Origin: an uncultured Lachnospiraceae bacterium
Lineage (GTDB): Bacteria; Bacillota; Clostridia; Lachnospirales; Lachnospiraceae
DNA length: 64,000 bases
Direction of reading: 5' to 3'
Assembly: GCA_902785055.1 (NCBI GenBank)
Contig: CACZXG010000010.1
Span: 26,790-90,789, forward strand
In this document: positions 5,527 to 60,091 of the stretch, in pieces
Numbering within the stretch: the first letter of the stretch is position 1
Layout: every line of letters starts with the position of its first letter
Made by a program: the position numbers and the translations under genes
The notes under the pieces: model-generated
Told to the model about the DNA's origin: nothing
Database searches by the model: none
The model's input: the letters and a program-made list of their open reading frames with translations, nothing else

Positions 5527-6345
5527 ATGCCGAATATTGGATTGAGGGAAATGCTCCTGAAAAAGGAACAGGAGTTGGAAAAACTGGTTCAGATAGTCGA
5601 AAAGCATGCCGACAGTCCATTGCCGGGAACACTGCAAATCTCAATGATTAAAGGAAAACCGCGTTATTATCATAGTTATCTTGACAAAAATGGAATCAAG
5701 CAGCTGAAATACCTGTCGGCTGTGAAGGAAGGTCCTAAAATTATGGAATTGGCTCAGCACAGTTATAATGCGGCGTTCCTGAAGACGGCAACTGATCAGC
5801 TGAAAGCGGTGAGAAGAGCGCTTAACAGAATTGATGAGAAGGCATTGGCTAATGTATTCGCTCTTCTTCACAGCGAGCGCAAAAAGCTGATCACGCCATT
5901 TGTGCCGGATGAAGAGATGTTCGTCAAACAATGGGAGCAGGATGAATACCAACCAGGGTATTTTTCTGATCAGACACCGTCAATATACAGCAATCGCGGT
6001 GAAAGGGTGAGATCCAAATCAGAAAAGATAATTGCTGATAAATATTATGAAAGAGGAATTCCATATAAGTATGAAAAGCCTTTGCTTCTCAGAAAGCAGG
6101 CTAAAACTATAACGATCAGACCGGACTTTACAACACTGAATAAGAGAACGCGCATACAGCGCTATCATGAGCACTTTGGAAAAATGGACGATCCGCAGTA
6201 TGCCCGAAAAGCTCTGGAAAAGATCAGGCTATATGAGAGTAATGGGATTTTTATTGGGGAGCAGCTCATTATTACATTCGAATCTTCCGAGCAGCCTTTG
6301 GACAAAAGGGAATTTGAGCTGCTCATTGAAAAGTATTTAATTTGA
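5527..6345 (+). CDS. Array-associated PD-(D/E)XK-like nuclease, paralogue A
   Basis: A 272-residue protein of unknown function. Residues 1-110 are charged and partly coiled coil, with a GTLQ...KGKPRYYHSY segment. The C-terminal half matches a DUF559/Vsr-like endonuclease pattern: RSKSE at 162-166, IPYKYE, RPDFT with Asp200, HEHFG with Glu215, then KIRLYESNG and LIITFESSEQPLD. The spacing Glu, PD, E-x-x-G suggests a metal-dependent DNA nuclease. The same motif order occurs in the protein at 56674-57510. The start at 5527 has a GGGGAGG site; upstream in-frame ATGs would translate the repeat array. It is AT-rich compared with its neighbours, which suggests transfer. Nuclease activity is inferred. 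Confidence 0.7.
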   Translation: MPNIGLREMLLKKEQELEKLVQIVEKHADSPLPGTLQISMIKGKPRYYHSYLDKNGIKQLKYLSAVKEGPKIMELAQHSYNAAFLKTATDQLKAVRRALNRIDEKALANVFALLHSERKKLITPFVPDEEMFVKQWEQDEYQPGYFSDQTPSIYSNRGERVRSKSEKIIADKYYERGIPYKYEKPLLLRKQAKTITIRPDFTTLNKRTRIQRYHEHFGKMDDPQYARKALEKIRLYESNGIFIGEQLIITFESSEQPLDKREFELLIEKYLI

Positions 6346-6447
6346 TAAACGAAACCATATTATTGCCAAAACAGAGCAATATGAGTAAAATAAATCCATA
6401 TTAGATCCATTACCAAACAAACGGCTCTAGAATGGATGGAGGCTATC

Positions 6448-52419: not shown

Positions 52420-53607
52420 ATGAAAAAGAACAGCAATGAGCCGTGGCCGGCAGTGCGGGCCAAAATATTCAGGATGGTTTCAGTCGGCGTGATCGACGAA
52501 CCGGTCAACCAGGCCTATGACGCGATCAGCATCATTGCGCTGCTGGCAAACCTTCTGGTCAGCGTGATGGGCACCTTCGACAATCTCCAGGCAGCATACG
52601 GGAGTATATTTATTTTGGTGGAGCAGGTGACGGTGTTCCTGTTCGGCGTCGACTACGTGCTGCGCGTGATCACAGCGCCGGAACTGTACCCGGAGGAGAC
52701 GCCCGTCGGAGCCAGGGCAAAATATTGCCTGTCCTTGTCCGGTATCATAGACCTGCTCTCTTTTTTGCCTTACTACCTGCCGGTATTCTTCCCGGCCGGC
52801 GTCGCGGCCTTCAGGATGTTCCGCGTGGTCAGGATCCTGAGGCTGTTCCGGATCAATGCGTATTATGATTCTCTCAATGTGATCACGGAAGTCCTAAAAA
52901 GCAAGAAGCAGCAGCTTCTCTCCTCGGTATTCATCATCGCGACTCTGATGCTCGGCTCGAGTCTGTGCATGTACAGCCTGGAGCACGAAGCGCAGCCGGA
53001 GGTATTCTCCAATGCCTTCTCGGGCATCTGGTGGGCCGCCTCGACACTTCTGACAGTAGGCTACGGAGACATCTATCCGATCACGCCGCTGGGCAAACTC
53101 TTCGGCATATGCATCACCTTCCTCGGCGTTGGAATGGTGGCGATCCCTACCGGTATCATCAGCGCCGGATTTGTCGAACAATATACACAGTTCGCGCTGC
53201 TGGGGGACAACAGAAGAGACGAGACCCTGAGATTCATCAGCATCGAACTGACTCCCGGTGACTCCTGGACCAATCAAGCCATCCGTGAATTGAAGCTCCC
53301 GGCAGGCCTTCTCATCGCGATCGTCAGAAGGGGAAAGGATTCCATCGTGCCCAACGGAGATCTGGTGCTCGAAGCCGGAGACATAGTCGTTCTCGGCGCG
53401 GAACCGCTTCCTGGCACGGATAACATGGAACTGAGGGAAATGACCATCTCTTCCAAACACAAGTGGAAAGACCAGGCGATCCGCGATCTTGATATCTCCC
53501 GGCAGACCTTTATCATCATGGTGAAGCGGGGCGACAGGAAAATCGTTCCCCGCGGCTCGACGGTCCTGCAGGAGGGCGACAGCGTTTACATGTATAAGAA
53601 AGCGTGA
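52420..53607 (+). CDS. Voltage-gated-type potassium channel with two TrkA-C domains
   Basis: A 395-residue channel. Six membrane helices span residues 30-250; the S4 segment AFRMFRVVRILRLFRI has regularly spaced arginines and the pore has STLLTVGYGDIYP with the TVGYGD filter. The cytosolic part has two RCK_C/TrkA-C-like repeats: FISIELTPGDSWTNQAIRELKLPAG and ISSKHKWKDQAIRDLDISRQ, without an RCK_N Rossmann domain. TrkA-C domains often bind cyclic di-AMP or similar ligands. ATG 52420 is the first good start; a TTG at 52396 has no support. The ribosome site is weak. Confidence 0.85.
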   Translation: MKKNSNEPWPAVRAKIFRMVSVGVIDEPVNQAYDAISIIALLANLLVSVMGTFDNLQAAYGSIFILVEQVTVFLFGVDYVLRVITAPELYPEETPVGARAKYCLSLSGIIDLLSFLPYYLPVFFPAGVAAFRMFRVVRILRLFRINAYYDSLNVITEVLKSKKQQLLSSVFIIATLMLGSSLCMYSLEHEAQPEVFSNAFSGIWWAASTLLTVGYGDIYPITPLGKLFGICITFLGVGMVAIPTGIISAGFVEQYTQFALLGDNRRDETLRFISIELTPGDSWTNQAIRELKLPAGLLIAIVRRGKDSIVPNGDLVLEAGDIVVLGAEPLPGTDNMELREMTISSKHKWKDQAIRDLDISRQTFIIMVKRGDRKIVPRGSTVLQEGDSVYMYKKA

Positions 53608-55050: not shown

Positions 55051-55653
55051 ATGACATATAACTTTTTTGCCACGCTGTCGAGAATGAAATACATCGAACG
55101 CTGGGCGCTGATGAGAAATGCGCGCGAGGAGACGCTGAGCGAGCACACGCTGGACGTCGCGATGATCGCACATGCGCTGTGCGTGATCGGCAATAAACGG
55201 TTCGGGAAATCGCTCAACGCGGACCGCGCGGCACTGATCGGGCTTTACCACGACGCGTCGGAGATCATCACCGGCGACATGCCTACGCCGGTCAAGTATT
55301 ACAACGACGACCTGCGGGACGCCTACAAAGAAGTGGAGCGGGCGGCGGAGCAGAGGCTTTTAAAGCAGCTGCCGGAAGACCTGCAGGATGTCTACGGCGA
55401 GATCTTCGAGGGGGATTCTTCCGAAGAAGACAGCTATATGCGCCGGCTCGTGAAGGCGGCGGACAAGCTCTCCGCGCTGATCAAGTGCATGGAGGAAACG
55501 GGAGCCGGAAACGGCGAGTTCCGGACTGCGCAGGCATCTACTCTCAGGGCAGTGGAGAAGCTGGCCTGGGAAATGCCGGAAGTGAAGGTTTATCTGGAGG
55601 AGTTCCTTCCTCCCTATGGCAGCACATTGGATGAACTTCTCGGGAGAGGATAG
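55051..55653 (+). CDS. yfbR: HD-domain 5'-nucleotidase (YfbR-like)
   Basis: A 200-residue deoxynucleoside monophosphatase. Metal ligands: LSEHTLDVAMIAHAL and LYHDASEIITGDMPTPVKY (HD pair with the following E), and VKAADKLSALIKC with the last Asp. It hydrolyses dNMPs, tuning nucleotide pools. ATG 55051 follows an AGAGG site; an upstream in-frame start at 54934 lies outside the family pattern. The phosphoesterase gene follows by 36 bp, probably in the same transcript. Confidence 0.9.
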   Translation: MTYNFFATLSRMKYIERWALMRNAREETLSEHTLDVAMIAHALCVIGNKRFGKSLNADRAALIGLYHDASEIITGDMPTPVKYYNDDLRDAYKEVERAAEQRLLKQLPEDLQDVYGEIFEGDSSEEDSYMRRLVKAADKLSALIKCMEETGAGNGEFRTAQASTLRAVEKLAWEMPEVKVYLEEFLPPYGSTLDELLGRG

Positions 55654-55689
55654 TACCCGCGCCGGGAAGCGGCGGAATGGAGAGTATTT

Positions 55690-56193
55690 ATGAAAGTATT
55701 GGTAGTCAGCGATTCCCACGGAAGACATGATCTTCTCCGCAAAGCCATCGGGCAGGAGGCCCCCATCGACATGCTGATCCATGCGGGCGACGTCGAGGGC
55801 GACCTCGACAAAATATTGGGACCGGGGCGCGAATACATCGTGCACGCAGTGGCCGGCAACATGGACTGGGGAACGCCGGAAGACAGCAGTATTACATTTG
55901 ACATGGGGGGACACAAGGTATTCCTGACCCATGGGCACCACTATGGCGTTTCCTACACACTGGCCAATCTGCGGGAAGCCGCGGAGAACTGCGGGGCGGA
56001 TGTGGCGATCTACGGCCACACCCATATGCCGGCGCTGGATGAGCAGAATGACATTCTGCTGCTCAATCCGGGCAGTGTGTCCAAACCCAGGCAGTCGGGA
56101 CTGAAGAAGACTTACGCGGTGATCACGATCAATGATAAGACCGGGAAGATGTCGGTGAAATTCAAGAGTCTGCCTATGATTGGCTGGATCTGA
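55690..56193 (+). CDS. YfcE/MJ0936 family metallophosphoesterase
   Basis: A 167-residue calcineurin-like phosphoesterase. All five metal motifs are seen: SDSHGRHD, HAGDVEGD, GNMDW, FLTHGHHYGV and YGHTHMPAL. Small members of this family cleave phosphodiesters such as bis-pNPP in vitro; the cellular substrate is uncertain. It lies directly downstream of yfbR. Confidence 0.9.
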   Translation: MKVLVVSDSHGRHDLLRKAIGQEAPIDMLIHAGDVEGDLDKILGPGREYIVHAVAGNMDWGTPEDSSITFDMGGHKVFLTHGHHYGVSYTLANLREAAENCGADVAIYGHTHMPALDEQNDILLLNPGSVSKPRQSGLKKTYAVITINDKTGKMSVKFKSLPMIGWI

Positions 56194-56210
56194 AGACGGA
56201 GCATTATAAA

Positions 56211-56235
56211 AAACGGCGGTGAGCCGTTTTTTTGT
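56211..56235 (+). terminator. Intrinsic terminator
   Basis: AAACGGC and GCCGTTT around GGTGA, with TTTT following. The left repeat array starts here. Confidence 0.8.
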
Positions 56236-56640
56236 GGGATAATCCGGTCGCGCGCAGTGTTTGTCATGGGGATTTGTTGATTCCAGGTGCGGTTGGGTAC
56301 AGAGGGGCGAGGTCGCGGATTTGTTCCACCTGGATTTTGTTGATTTTGGGCGCGGTTGGGCACAGAGGGGCATTTTTAGAAATTGTTCTCCAGGGCTTTT
56401 GCTGATTTTGAACGTAGTTGGGCACAGAAGAGCATTTACAAGAAATAATTCTCTTTCCGCGAGGAAATTCTTGGAGAAGAAATCAAGAAAAACCTTGCAG
56501 TGCCCAACAGCCTTCAACTCATCGAAAAACCAAGGGGAAGAAATCAAAAAGAACCCTTACAGTGCCCAACAGCCGTCAAACCATCGAAAAACCGAGGGGA
56601 AGAAATTAAGAATGCCCAGAACAGTGCCCAGCGGGGGAAT
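56229..56640. repeat. 62-bp-period array with GTTGGGCAC/GTGCCCAAC cores, left copy (array B-left)
   Basis: GTTGGGCAC lies at 56355 and 56417, with a GTTGGGTAC variant at 56292 and a degenerate unit near 56229; steps are 62-63 bp. After an 83-bp centre the motif is inverted: GTGCCCAAC at 56500 and 56562, and a GTGCCCAGC variant at 56614. The centre is a rough palindrome (ATAATTCTCTTTCCGCGAGG region, 56446-56480). From about 56347 the block is nearly identical to the right copy at 57811 on. No gene is seen in 56194-56673. Confidence 0.9.
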
Positions 56641-56673
56641 AAGGATTCATGACGCTTCGCCCCGAAACGCCGT

Positions 56674-57510
56674 TCAATATAAAGGGACAGTTTCACAGGA
56701 GAAAAATTCTCTGAGTTTATCTTGAGCAATTGTAATATCAAAAGGGCGGCCTTCGCTCTCGTAAGTCAGGATTAAATTGTAATCGGGAATAAGACCATTG
56801 TTGATGTAAATTCGCATTTTTTGAATGAAGTCTGAGCGATATTCCGGCATATGGAGAGCTCCGACATGTTCCCAATAATAGGTTTTTCCGGTGACAGGAT
56901 GACGAATCGTGAAATCAGGATAATAGATATGCCCGCCAATTTCCAACTTGCATTCATAACGATAAGGAATGTGCTGTGCAGAAAGAAGCATTACGATGAA
57001 TGCTTCAGATTTAGAACGGACCATTGTCCCGTCAACGGTCGGAACGTTTTTGTGTTCAGGATGGTAAGGATTAGTTTCGTACTCTTCATGAGCCCATCTT
57101 TTCAATTCTTCAGACAAATCATCTGAGGTCGGCAACTCTTCGTCTTCCAGAAGATTAAAAAGCAGTGGCACATTAAGAAGGTCTTTAAGAGCTGAATTCT
57201 GGCTGTATTTTGCCAAAAAAGAATCCATTGCACTAAGCTGGTTTTTAATATCCTTAAGGCGTTTACTGTGGAGCCTTTTTCGAGCAAGCTGCTTCGCGAA
57301 ATTTCGATTCTTACGGGAAATATAAATTTTCTTATTGAGGCCATCCTTATCAGTAACGGAGACATAGTACTTGTAGTAAGTCCTCCCTTTGGAAGTGTTT
57401 TTACTGTAGATGAGCGTGCCAACTGGTGCTTCGCGAAGAAGCTTTTCCAGCTTGCGCTTCTCCTGGATCAAGGATTCACGAGTGTCTTCTATGATGTTTT
57501 TCAGTGTCAT
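56674..57510 (-). CDS. Array-enclosed PD-(D/E)XK-like nuclease, paralogue B
   Basis: A 278-residue protein of unknown function, paralogous to the product of 5527-6345. Residues 1-110 are helical and basic with GTLIYSKNTSKGRTYYKYY. The C-terminal part has RSKSE at 165-169, IPYRYE, YYPDFT (Asp199), YYWEHVG (Glu214), KMRIYINNGL and LILTYESEGRPFD. The motif order agrees with a DUF559/Vsr-like endonuclease. AGGAAAGGAG precedes the start. Both flanks carry copies of the same 62-bp-period array, so gene and repeats look like one unit. Nuclease activity and target are inferred. Confidence 0.72.
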   Translation of the reverse strand: MTLKNIIEDTRESLIQEKRKLEKLLREAPVGTLIYSKNTSKGRTYYKYYVSVTDKDGLNKKIYISRKNRNFAKQLARKRLHSKRLKDIKNQLSAMDSFLAKYSQNSALKDLLNVPLLFNLLEDEELPTSDDLSEELKRWAHEEYETNPYHPEHKNVPTVDGTMVRSKSEAFIVMLLSAQHIPYRYECKLEIGGHIYYPDFTIRHPVTGKTYYWEHVGALHMPEYRSDFIQKMRIYINNGLIPDYNLILTYESEGRPFDITIAQDKLREFFSCETVPLY

Positions 57511-57689
57511 GGGGCTCCTTTCCTCCGAATGGAGATAGAAATGAAATGTGAAAGTGTAAATTGGTTTGTTCCGACTGTCGCCTGATGATTACGGCGAGAT
57601 CCATCGGAAGAACGATTATTCCTAGATTATATGGCGAATGGAGATGGGAGGCAAGAAGGAAGAGTTGGAATTTGTGCGGCTGGTTTTTA

Positions 57690-58100
57690 GGCGTGGTTGG
57701 GCACTAGGTTGATTTGTTGGAAATTGTGCTCCTGGGATTTGGTGATTTTGGGCGTGGTTGGGTACCAGGTTGGTTTTGGGGGAAATGTTCCCCCAGGATT
57801 TTAGTGATTATGGGCGCGGTTGGGCACAGAGGGGCATTATTAGAAATTGTTCTCCAAGGTTTTTGCTGATTTTGAACGTAGTTGGGCACAGAAGAACATT
57901 TACAAGAAAGAATTCTCTTTCCGCGAGGAATTTCTTGGAGAAGAAATCAAGAAAAAACCTTGTAGTGCCCAACAGCCTTAAAATTAGTGAAAAACCGAGG
58001 GGAAGAAATCAAGAAAAACCCTTGCAGTGCCCAACAGTCTTTAAATCATCGAAAAACCGAGGGGAAGAGATTTAGAATAACCATCACAGTGCCCAACGGG
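57690..58100. repeat. 62-bp-period array with GTTGGGCAC/GTGCCCAAC cores, right copy (array B-right)
   Basis: GTTGGGCAC at 57696, 57819 and 57881, with GTTGGGTAC at 57757 (steps 61, 62, 62). After an 84-bp centre the motif inverts: GTGCCCAAC at 57965, 58027 and 58089 (steps 62). The part from about 57811 to 57980 matches the left copy at 56347-56512 almost base for base. The last core ends 11 bp before the YgiQ stop codon. The remaining gap 57511-57689 shows no gene. Confidence 0.9.
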
Positions 58101-58108
58101 GCACAGAG

Positions 58109-60091
58109 TCAATGCTTCTTCGGCCCGGAGCGTCGCCCGGAACTCCCGGATTTGCCAGAATTGCCGCGCGGCTTACGTGAATCATGCGCAGTCTGAGAAC
58201 CGCGTGATTTCTGTGACTTCCGCGAATCAGAAATTCCCCGCGGCGAAAGCGAATCGGTTGCTCTCCGCGGTTCCCTGGGCGGGATCAGGAACTTATCGCC
58301 GAAGCCGATGAGGTCGCCGCGGCCTTCGCGGAGGAGAGCTTCTTTGACGAGAGTGTAGTTTTTCGGGTCACGGTACTGGATCAGCGCCCGCTGCATCGCC
58401 TTTTCGTGCGGGTCGCGCGGTACATACACTTTCTGCATCGTGGAAGGGTCGCCGCCGCGCATTGTTGTCGGGTCAAGACCGGTGTAGTACATGCAGGTGG
58501 AGATCGTGCCCGGCGTCGGGTAGAAGTCCTGCACCTGCTCCGGCATGTAACCGAGGTCACGGATGTACTCCGCCAGCGCGATCGCGTCCTTCATGGTGCT
58601 GCCCGGGTGGGAACTCATCAGGTAGGGCACGATATACTGATCTTTGCCGAGCTTTTCATTCATTTTCTCGAATTCGCGGCAGAAAGCGTTGTATACGTTC
58701 ACCGAAGGCTTGCCCATTTTGGAGAGCACATTGTCCGAGATGTGTTCAGGTGCCACTCGGAGCTGCCCGCTGACATGATACTCGCAAAGTTCCCGCAGGA
58801 AGGTCCGGTCCTTGTCTGCCAAAAGATAGTCGAATCGGAAGCCTGACCTGACGAACACTTTTTTGACGCCCGGAAGGGCGCGGAGCTTTCTAAGGAGCGA
58901 TAGGTAGTCGCTGTGGTCGACTTTGAGGTTGGGGCAGGGCTGTGGGTAGAGGCAGCGGCGGTTTTTGCAGGCCCCTTTTGTGAGCTGCTTGTCACAGGCG
59001 GGGCGCCTGAATTCCGCGGTGGGACCGCCGACGTCGTGGATATAGCCCTTGAAATCAGGATCCTTCAGGCAGGTCTTAGCCTCCTCGAGGATAGACTTAT
59101 GGCTGCGGGCCTGAACGATGCGGCCCTCATGGAAGGTGAGAGCACAGAAATTGCAGTCGCCAAAACAGCCCCTGTTCGAAGTGAGGCTGAATTTGATCTC
59201 GCTGAGCGCAGGGATGCCCCCATCTTTCTCATAGGAGGGGTGATAGGCGCGCATAAAGGGCAGCGCGTAGACGTCGTCCATCTCCTGAGTAGTCAGAGGC
59301 TTCGCGGGCGGGTTCTGCACGACGAAGAGTTTGCCGTCGTAGGCCTCGTAGATACGTTTGGCCTGGAAGGGATCCGTGTTCTCATGCTGGATCGCGAAAC
59401 TGCAGGCGTACTGTCTCTTGTCGCTGCGGACCTGCTCGAAGTCGGGGAGCCTGATGGCGTCGTAGATGTTCTCCTCGTCGCGGGTCTTGTAGACAGTTCC
59501 GTCGATATAGGTGATATCGCGAATGTCGAGGCCGGAGGCGAGAGCGTCGGCGATCTCAGGAATGCTGTGCTCGCCCATGCCGTAGGAGATGAGGTCGGCG
59601 CCGGAATCGAGAAGGATCGAGCGGCGGACCTTGTCAGACCAGTAGTCATAGTGGCTCAGTCTCCGGAGAGAGGCCTCAATGCCGCCGATGATAATTGGCG
59701 TGCGCTTATAGGTCTGCCGGATCAGGTTGCAGTAGACAATGACCGCGTAATCGGGCCGTTTGCCGATAACGCCGCCGGGGGAATAGGTGTCCTGGTGGCG
59801 TCTCTTTTTTGCCACTGTATAATGGTTGACCATGGAGTCCATATTGCCGGAGGAGACAAGAAAGCCAAGGCGAGGCTCTCCATAAATCTGTACGCTCTTC
59901 GGGTCGCGCCAGTCGGGCTGGCAGATCAGGGCAACGCTGTAGCCGCGCGACTGCAAAAGGCGGCAGATGATCGCGGTGCCGAAGCTCGAGTGGTCTACGT
60001 AGGCGTCGCCGCTGACATAGACAAAGTCGGGCCGGTCAATGCCGTCCGCTATGAGGTCTTGTTTGCTGATGGGTAGAAAGCCGTTGGGCAT
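58109..60091 (-). CDS. YgiQ family radical SAM protein
   Basis: A 660-residue B12-fold-less radical SAM protein of the YgiQ type. The cluster motif is SLTSNRGCFGDCNFCALTFHEGR (CxxxCxxC). DFVYVSGDAYVDHSSFGTAIICRLL, the N-terminal signature, GGIEASLRRLSHYDYWSD, and PGVKKVFVRSGFRFDYLL are also conserved. Function is unsettled. The last 50 residues form an odd Ser/Arg/Lys/Gly-rich tail (RKSQKSRGSQTAHDSRK region), probably disordered. ATG 60091 has an AAGGAG site; a longer in-frame start is less likely. Its 3' end abuts array B-right. Confidence 0.9.
   Translation of the reverse strand: MPNGFLPISKQDLIADGIDRPDFVYVSGDAYVDHSSFGTAIICRLLQSRGYSVALICQPDWRDPKSVQIYGEPRLGFLVSSGNMDSMVNHYTVAKKRRHQDTYSPGGVIGKRPDYAVIVYCNLIRQTYKRTPIIIGGIEASLRRLSHYDYWSDKVRRSILLDSGADLISYGMGEHSIPEIADALASGLDIRDITYIDGTVYKTRDEENIYDAIRLPDFEQVRSDKRQYACSFAIQHENTDPFQAKRIYEAYDGKLFVVQNPPAKPLTTQEMDDVYALPFMRAYHPSYEKDGGIPALSEIKFSLTSNRGCFGDCNFCALTFHEGRIVQARSHKSILEEAKTCLKDPDFKGYIHDVGGPTAEFRRPACDKQLTKGACKNRRCLYPQPCPNLKVDHSDYLSLLRKLRALPGVKKVFVRSGFRFDYLLADKDRTFLRELCEYHVSGQLRVAPEHISDNVLSKMGKPSVNVYNAFCREFEKMNEKLGKDQYIVPYLMSSHPGSTMKDAIALAEYIRDLGYMPEQVQDFYPTPGTISTCMYYTGLDPTTMRGGDPSTMQKVYVPRDPHEKAMQRALIQYRDPKNYTLVKEALLREGRGDLIGFGDKFLIPPREPRRATDSLSPRGISDSRKSQKSRGSQTAHDSRKPRGNSGKSGSSGRRSGPKKH

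Follow-up and report, generated by a model that had tools for sequence, protein, structure and literature searches.

A PD-(D/E)XK-type nuclease gene between helically phased motif arrays in Lachnospiraceae: a candidate two-part selfish DNA system

The array-gene-array unit and its protein

In the 64-kb stretch of Lachnospiraceae DNA analyzed here as a whole (the window), a gene encoding a 278-residue protein is located between two arrays of a short motif (Table 1). The window contains 11 copies of the 9-mer GTTGGGCAC, against 0.41 expected by chance, and none of 100 shuffles reached 11; 10 of the copies flank the gene on one side or the other. Exact copies are found at 56355+, 56417+, 56500- and 56562- in the left flank and at 57696+, 57819+, 57881+, 57965-, 58027- and 58089- in the right flank, and the gaps in the lattice are filled by one-base variants, GTTGGGTAC at 56292+ and 57757+ and GTGCCCAGC at 56624-. 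Each flank displays three to four plus-strand motifs, a center of 83 or 84 bp and then three inverted motifs, the motif step being 61-63 bp. In direct orientation the flanks match over 56317-56492 and 57781-57956 (176 nt, 93%) and again over 56488-56636 and 57953-58101 (149 nt, 86%). A first-pass annotation of this DNA had described ten exact 9-mers plus variants in 61-63 bp steps, their inversion after a center of 83-84 bp, and about 170 bp of nearly identical sequence in direct orientation, and all three descriptions are borne out in both flanks; of the extent it assigned to the unit, 56229-58100, the end at 58100 is right, whereas the array starts near 56273. The left array, when folded as DNA, is also a large imperfect palindrome (z = -3.45).

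Table 1. Positions of the unit and its parts in the window
Feature	Position	Strand	Details or basis
Gene of the 278-aa array-associated protein	56674..57510	-	ORF, alignment, dN/dS
N-terminal part, residues 1-104: helix, three strands, long helix	57199..57510	-	AlphaFold2 model m2cd8f198ccd6
C-terminal restriction-endonuclease-like domain, residues 140-278	56677..57093	-	E169, D199, E214 and H215 invariant; models; PADLOC match
Left array	56273..56640	.	GTTGGG[C/T]AC at 56292+, 56355+, 56417+, inverted at 56500-, 56562-, 56624-; steps 62-63 bp, center 83 bp
Right array	57690..58101	.	GTTGGG[C/T]AC at 57696+, 57757+, 57819+, 57881+, inverted at 57965-, 58027-, 58089-; direct near-copy of the left array
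Segment missing entirely from G102 and G123	56194..58265	.	Comparison with relatives

In the genome to which the window belongs (G000, 3.13 Mb), GTTGGGCAC has 29 matches, of which 10 are those described above, 4 lie in an array on contig C73 and 15 are single. Arrays are thus confined to two places, and the 9-mer is not the common genome-wide repeat that the annotation had named as evidence against itself. A reversed-pattern control returned no match in the same genome, and for that reason the single sites may also somewhat exceed chance. One lone copy lies at 53347-53355 of the window, away from the arrays and within a predicted coding frame.

Modeled with AlphaFold2, the window protein (pLDDT 87) and its homologue L113 (pLDDT 94) both show a helix that leads to a small beta tip, followed by a long helix and then a restriction-endonuclease-like domain, residues 1-104 of the window protein being predicted to form a coiled coil with a beta tip. 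Foldseek searches with the models returned weak matches to Bax1, DrdV, BamHI and the R2 endonuclease domain (E 4.5e-3 to 0.3, none below 0.001). Residues E169, D199, E214 and H215 are invariant in alignments of 30 and of 50 hand-chosen family members, and H215 directly follows E214, where classical PD-(D/E)XK members have E-x-K. By its restriction-endonuclease-like core and acidic active site the window protein fits the PD-(D/E)XK nuclease superfamily, to which TnsA of Tn7 and Vsr also belong. It resembles BamHI, DrdV, Bax1 and R2 in the fold of the C-terminal domain, to the extent of those weak matches, and differs from them in its coiled-coil/beta-tip N-terminus and its cognate array; a PDB sequence search with the family profile found no relation, the best hit (E 0.11) being an unrelated protein. 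The models and matches agree with the earlier description of the locus as a discrete unit, with a protein of endonuclease fold encoded between its two arrays. An integrase arm-binding domain was also considered for the N-terminus and dropped, as the models give helix, strands and long helix, and prefoldin is among the weak Foldseek matches.

In PADLOC the C-terminal domain alone finds a match, to the C-terminus of the candidate defense protein PDC-S68 (about 1220 aa; 5.9e-27), so that the two have a nuclease domain in common and the likeness is confined to it; weaker matches of the window protein are to HEAT_CxxC_PDDEXK and PDC-S69. Open frames of 1112-1245 aa in G035, G079, G088, G142 and G143, similar in length to PDC-S68, also match this domain. 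A Pfam scan of the window protein gave nothing at E 1 except Acb1 (0.12), and over 50 family members no Pfam family at E 0.01 was common to more than one. No NCBIfam family was found for the window protein, and PHROGs gave no confident family for it (best E 0.018) or for its paralogue on contig C11 (0.0017). The four neighboring genes scanned encode a YfbR-like protein, a metallophosphoesterase, a radical SAM protein and an HTH protein; there is no methyltransferase, and hence no adjoining restriction-modification partner, among them, and no Cas family in these four or in the gene itself.

The gene is under purifying selection. Compared with its counterparts in G132, G112 and G123 it has a dN/dS of 0.06-0.09 (dS against G123 being saturated), and among G000, G145, G132, G112 and G123 nine of the ten pairs fall between 0.06 and 0.12, which argues that the protein is maintained; the tenth pair, G000 and G145, gives 0.27 from two differences.

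A family of nucleases with particular, helically phased motifs

Searches beyond the window confirmed that the unit is one case of a wider nuclease-array system. Eight family members are encoded in the genome of the window, and with one divergent query the family was detected in 37 of 100 sampled genomes, each of another genus of Lachnospiraceae; within the genus itself 34 of 61 genomes have it. Among the pattern matches listed from a species-level genome collection, at least 547 of 589 encode a relative, and the named relatives are, again among the matches listed, mostly Lachnospiraceae; cultivated carriers among them include Faecalicatena contorta and Butyrivibrio strains. There is little sign of carriage by known phages or plasmids, given that the window protein found only three faecal phage contigs (24-35% identity, one spanning most of the query) and that L113 found nine plasmid records, in the nuclease domain only, eight of them in annotated ATPases or helicases and one unannotated. 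A second member in the window itself, at 5545-6357 (G000:C10:32334-33146), is 32% identical and carries two in-frame stops; the same stop count in G112 and G145 makes it look like an old decayed copy, and no clear array was found around it.

The association between gene and array was assessed in 80 loci from the species-level collection, 66 of which have 600 bp of upstream DNA. Arrays with a period of 40-130 bp and a center within 600 bp upstream were found at 44 of these 66, against 8 of the 465 remaining upstream bins, and downstream at 5 of 76 near the gene against 7 of 607 further out. In a motif scan, 108 of 157 loci, near-duplicates included, exceed the 95th percentile of 81 in-locus control windows and 49 do not. 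Placement varies among the 40 loci scanned for it, arrays being upstream, downstream only or on both sides. Both-sided arrays with the two orientations in each flank are found in the window and at L219-L221, whereas other clades often have one side only, mostly upstream in the clade with 53-bp spacing. Several of the 40 loci have a weak array or none (e.g. L222, L223, L224, L226, L244, L245 and L251); no array was detected at the orthologues L222 (67%) and L223 (62%), nor at the paralogue on contig C131 of the same genome.

The motif differs from member to member. Beside the C11 paralogue (56% identity) it is GTTTCGGTACAGAAG / TTTCGGTACAGA, around the member on contig C34 it is CATCGGAT, and TACGGTT, TTGACTC, TGACCGCAA and CCTGCC are found beside further members. 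Since paralogues of one genome are accompanied by different motifs, specificities would diversify inside a single genome. The DNA upstream of the C34 member also contains short repeats in tandem, of about 28 bp (CGGCGCTTCGCCCGGC; L032:900-1100).

Similarity between motifs tracks identity between proteins (Mantel r = 0.59 over 53 loci, 0 of 999 permutations), a covariation that in part reflects shared descent. When the domains are taken separately, the partial r with motif similarity is 0.45 for the beta tip against 0.15 for the nuclease domain. These 53 of the 80 loci have a clear consensus and a protein of more than 240 aa; L095, L116, L118, L138 and L153 were excluded by hand, and pairs above 85% identity were set aside for the Spearman values only. 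Between the arrays of the window and those of the orthologue in G123 (76% aa) identity is 83-87% in the motifs and 50-53% outside them, a sequence comparison which suggests that the motif is under selection.

Tandem repeats are not rare in this genome, and repeat-rich intergenic DNA might lie near such genes by chance. In control stretches that total 400 kb and come from chosen positions on 20 contigs, TRF detected 12 repeat places, with units of 40, 45, 60, 71, 72, 78 and 129 bp and one array of 63/64 bp. The control units mostly differ from those of the arrays, the 63/64-bp array coincides with a site of the C34 motif, and a chance origin, which is excluded by the distance profile of the arrays and by the covariation between motif and protein, is hardly credible. 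In the same genome, long repeats at 2666-11017 of L351 (G000:C16) have a 60-bp unit in up to 18 copies, a period divisible by three, and are possibly a repetitive coding gene.

Motif copies follow the turn of the DNA helix. The modal same-strand spacing, taken in the 93 of 157 loci that remained after those with fewer than five sites or fewer than three usable spacings were dropped, is 53 bp at 35 loci, 52 or 54 bp at 24 and 62-64 bp at 13, the others having 36, 41-42, 47, 50-51, 59, 71-75, 82-86, 91-94, 103 or 125 bp. Only four of the 93 loci, at 36, 47, 59 and 91 bp, are more than 2.6 bp (a quarter turn) away from a multiple of 10.5 bp. Clustering at 70% protein identity left 60 representatives, 33 of them at 51-55 bp, and the 27 outside this range, scanned over periods of 6-20 bp, have their peak at 10.4 bp (R = 0.54, Z = 7.9, phase 0.2 bp). 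The unclustered test outside 51-55 bp (33 loci) gives Z = 11.9, and partial removal of near-duplicates (L219, L220 and L229 out, medians taken) gives 7.2. Such multiples of about 10.5 bp are characteristic of sites that share one face of the duplex. At L238 (G110:C31) a single array mixes steps of 52, 63, 74 and 105 bp, each close to a whole number of helical turns, and also has a step of 79 bp.

Two alternative readings are touched by the phasing. In the first, the array would be transcribed and cut into guides, as in TIGR-Tas or CRISPR-like RNA-guided systems, with the motifs as repeats. Short repeats at fixed spacing beside a nuclease gene, particular to each locus, are reminiscent of TIGR arrays, whose repeats, in the portion of PMC12045711 that describes them, are conserved within a locus and differ between loci. 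However, spacing locked to the helix, with unit lengths quantized to its turns, counts against an RNA product of free length; the arrays of the window invert half way and the sequence between motifs drifts; the window protein lacks any Pfam domain, Nop included, at E 0.01, and no Pfam family is common to more than one of 50 members; and in 55500-59000 nothing reached the Rfam gathering score, the best hit, SNORD94 (E 0.74), being regarded as chance. We consider guide production very improbable. The second reading is a structural one, in which the nuclease fold binds DNA as a chromosome organizer or a plasmid-iteron-like protein and the arrays, moved by ordinary recombination, serve for its docking. 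An architectural protein would require arrays in phase with the helix and dispersed in the genome, yet the four putative catalytic residues are invariant in both alignments, and a genome may hold many paralogues with different motifs, which are gained and lost; this reading is improbable, if less so than the guides.

Gain, loss, relocation and solo arrays

The unit is present or absent as a whole in relatives. The site in the window is full in G000, G145, G132 and G112 and empty in G102 and G123. The flank of G102 is 95% identical, and in place of the segment this genome has some 95 bp of different sequence; neither G102 nor G123 keeps an array there. No target-site duplication and no clean junction were found in these two empty alleles, the intergenic DNA being otherwise remodeled. 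In a set of 16 relatives both flanks were matched in one full and two empty genomes, and the other 13, matched on the radical-SAM side only, are uninformative. The unit also occurs elsewhere: in G123 the orthologue and its GTTGGGCAC-type arrays occupy the site at which G000 has the C11 paralogue with its different motif. Further types occupy this C11 site in G106 and G154, a member lies among rearranged pieces of the site in G135, and tblastn found no member at it in G144, G153, G156 and G121. At 3693-4844 of L038 a gene separates a solo array from the C11 element; it is inverted relative to its neighbors in G106 and reordered in G135, which would fit recombination between the arrays flanking it (L228 and L222 compared with L038).

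In G123 the left and right arrays are 79% alike and only 54-58% identical to the arrays of other genomes, and accordingly both arrays of the unit evolve together there. Joint evolution was not apparent in all lineages, an example being G112, whose two arrays (75%) are no closer to each other than to those of G000.

At the C73 site three states are found, namely no array in G112 and G145, a solo array in G000, and array-gene-array in G132 and G102, the gene of the latter two being a 53% relative. The solo array combines the outer left part of one array with the outer right part of its partner, the junction falling inside a motif, TCCTGTGCCCAACCG; its two BLAST matches overlap at TCCTGTGCCCAACCG, with 13 of 15 bp common to all three sequences. 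Because G102, which at this locus is more distant than G132 (93 against 98%), has the gene too, loss from G000 is the simplest reading, and the solo state is most simply a deletion, of a kind that ordinary recombination could also make. With regard to mobility, the first-pass annotation is supported in that the unit is present or absent in its entirety and an orthologue with the same arrays lies at another locus. It also proposed that close strains be compared for an empty site with a single array, which is what this sister element displays at C73, whereas the window site in G102 and G123 retains neither array; strains keeping both arrays after losing the gene, the outcome it had held to count against it, were not found at this site.

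Arrays also exist at a distance from any detected gene of the family. Phased sites of the C34 motif are found on C13, C34 (twice), C50, C77 and C127, in addition to a pair on C11, and on the short contigs C50, C77 and C127 no family member was found. Up to one mismatch, the motif has 40 hits in its own genome. The three genomes with a 98-100% orthologue of the C34 protein rank first to third of 61 by motif hits, with 40, 30 and 23, followed by 18, 16 and 15; since these three, G000, G145 and G112, are close relatives, the ranking is support and not proof. G132 and G102, in which no C34 orthologue was detected, have 16 and 11 hits, some at array spacing. On C50, G102 lacks 783 bp that include the array and has 1 bp between the flanks; the array has other units in G112 and G132, and G145 has a run of N. 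An open frame of 203 aa spans this solo array (L359:4649-5260, G000:C50), which may be due to chance because the 63-bp unit is a multiple of three, although the array may also have a coding role.

These distributions bear on the main alternative, a defense or stress nuclease directed against invading DNA, whose own array would serve as a cooperative operator or as a storage platform that keeps the nuclease low or inactive. In the 53-bp clade the gene mostly has its array immediately upstream, which would suit an operator; the domain held in common with PDC-S68 points to defense, and patchy presence, with shared sites hosting different types, is typical of defense genes too. Nevertheless, some loci have their array only downstream or have arrays on both sides, solo arrays are found on contigs with no detected member, and there is no defense gene among the four neighbors scanned, so we regard this explanation as unlikely, though it deserves more weight than the structural one. 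The narrower reading of the arrays as operators and nothing else is weakened by the solo and the downstream-only cases.

Proposed mechanism and relation to known systems

We hypothesize, giving it an even chance, that the PD-(D/E)XK-type nuclease and its cognate array form a two-part selfish DNA system. In this model, the N-terminal coiled-coil/beta-tip domain would read a short motif particular to each nuclease, as the stronger correlation of the beta tip suggests. With motif copies at whole helical turns (about 42, 53, 63, 73, 84 and 94 bp), many copies of the protein could line up on one face of the duplex, either next to each other or as dyads, and the C-terminal domain would cut the DNA at or near motif copies. 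The breaks might then be repaired by way of the short homology that motif copies provide, or from a different array, and such repair would duplicate, expand, homogenize and relocate arrays together with the gene, sometimes deleting the gene and leaving a solo array. We infer binding, cleavage and nuclease-driven rearrangement from the genomic patterns described above; the element would accordingly behave in the manner of REP/RAYT or homing elements while being a member of neither.

A bolder proposal, which we hold somewhat more tentatively, is that these elements are an undescribed class of prokaryotic selfish element, single-gene nucleases that own a helically phased array, assemble on one face of it, and cut it to copy, shuffle or drop themselves, as an independently evolved counterpart of REP/RAYT with a restriction fold. 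In the open-access literature, whose silence is a weak negative, no description of these proteins or arrays was found. If the model holds, it would reveal a widespread partnership between nuclease and DNA in gut bacteria and account for a class of intergenic repeats in their genomes, and dozens of natural protein/motif pairs would show how a small coiled-coil/beta-tip domain reads DNA.

The resemblance to REP/RAYT, already pointed out by the first-pass annotation together with the non-transposase nature of the protein, is one of layout. As far as the relevant part of PMC2817692 describes them, RAYT genes are flanked by copies of a short cognate sequence, in regularly spaced clusters of alternating orientation (BIMEs), and gene-free copies are dispersed in the genome. 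The present system resembles them in these points, with arrays on both sides of the gene in the window and at L219-L221 and often on one side only in other clades. In contrast, the window protein is restriction-endonuclease-like and devoid of the Pfam01797 (Y1/HUH) transposase domain, and spacing is here locked to helical turns. Copy number differs as well, exceeding 100 per genome for REP, when GTTGGGCAC has two array places and the C34 motif 40 hits. Considered as a whole, the earlier interpretation is partly supported.

PD-(D/E)XK enzymes are known among homing endonucleases, I-Ssp6803I being one. Like these, the present elements consist of a nuclease gene inside its putative target, are gained and lost at that target, and include different nucleases at the same site; unlike them, they have a many-copy array as putative target, which stays intact beside the gene, and no intron or intein was seen. 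A boundary of the homing type is approached at the C73 site, where the junction falls in the 15-bp motif stretch, although deletion is simpler, and the boundary at the window site is not clean.

TIGR-Tas systems likewise combine a repeat array and a single neighboring gene, with a repeat sequence that is locus-specific in the portion of PMC12045711 concerned. The present loci differ from them in the lack of a Nop domain, in a unit length set by the DNA helix and in the inversion that may occur within one flank. They also differ from CRISPR-Cas, in that the DNA between motifs holds no unique spacers and is instead alignable from one array to another, drifting as it diverges.
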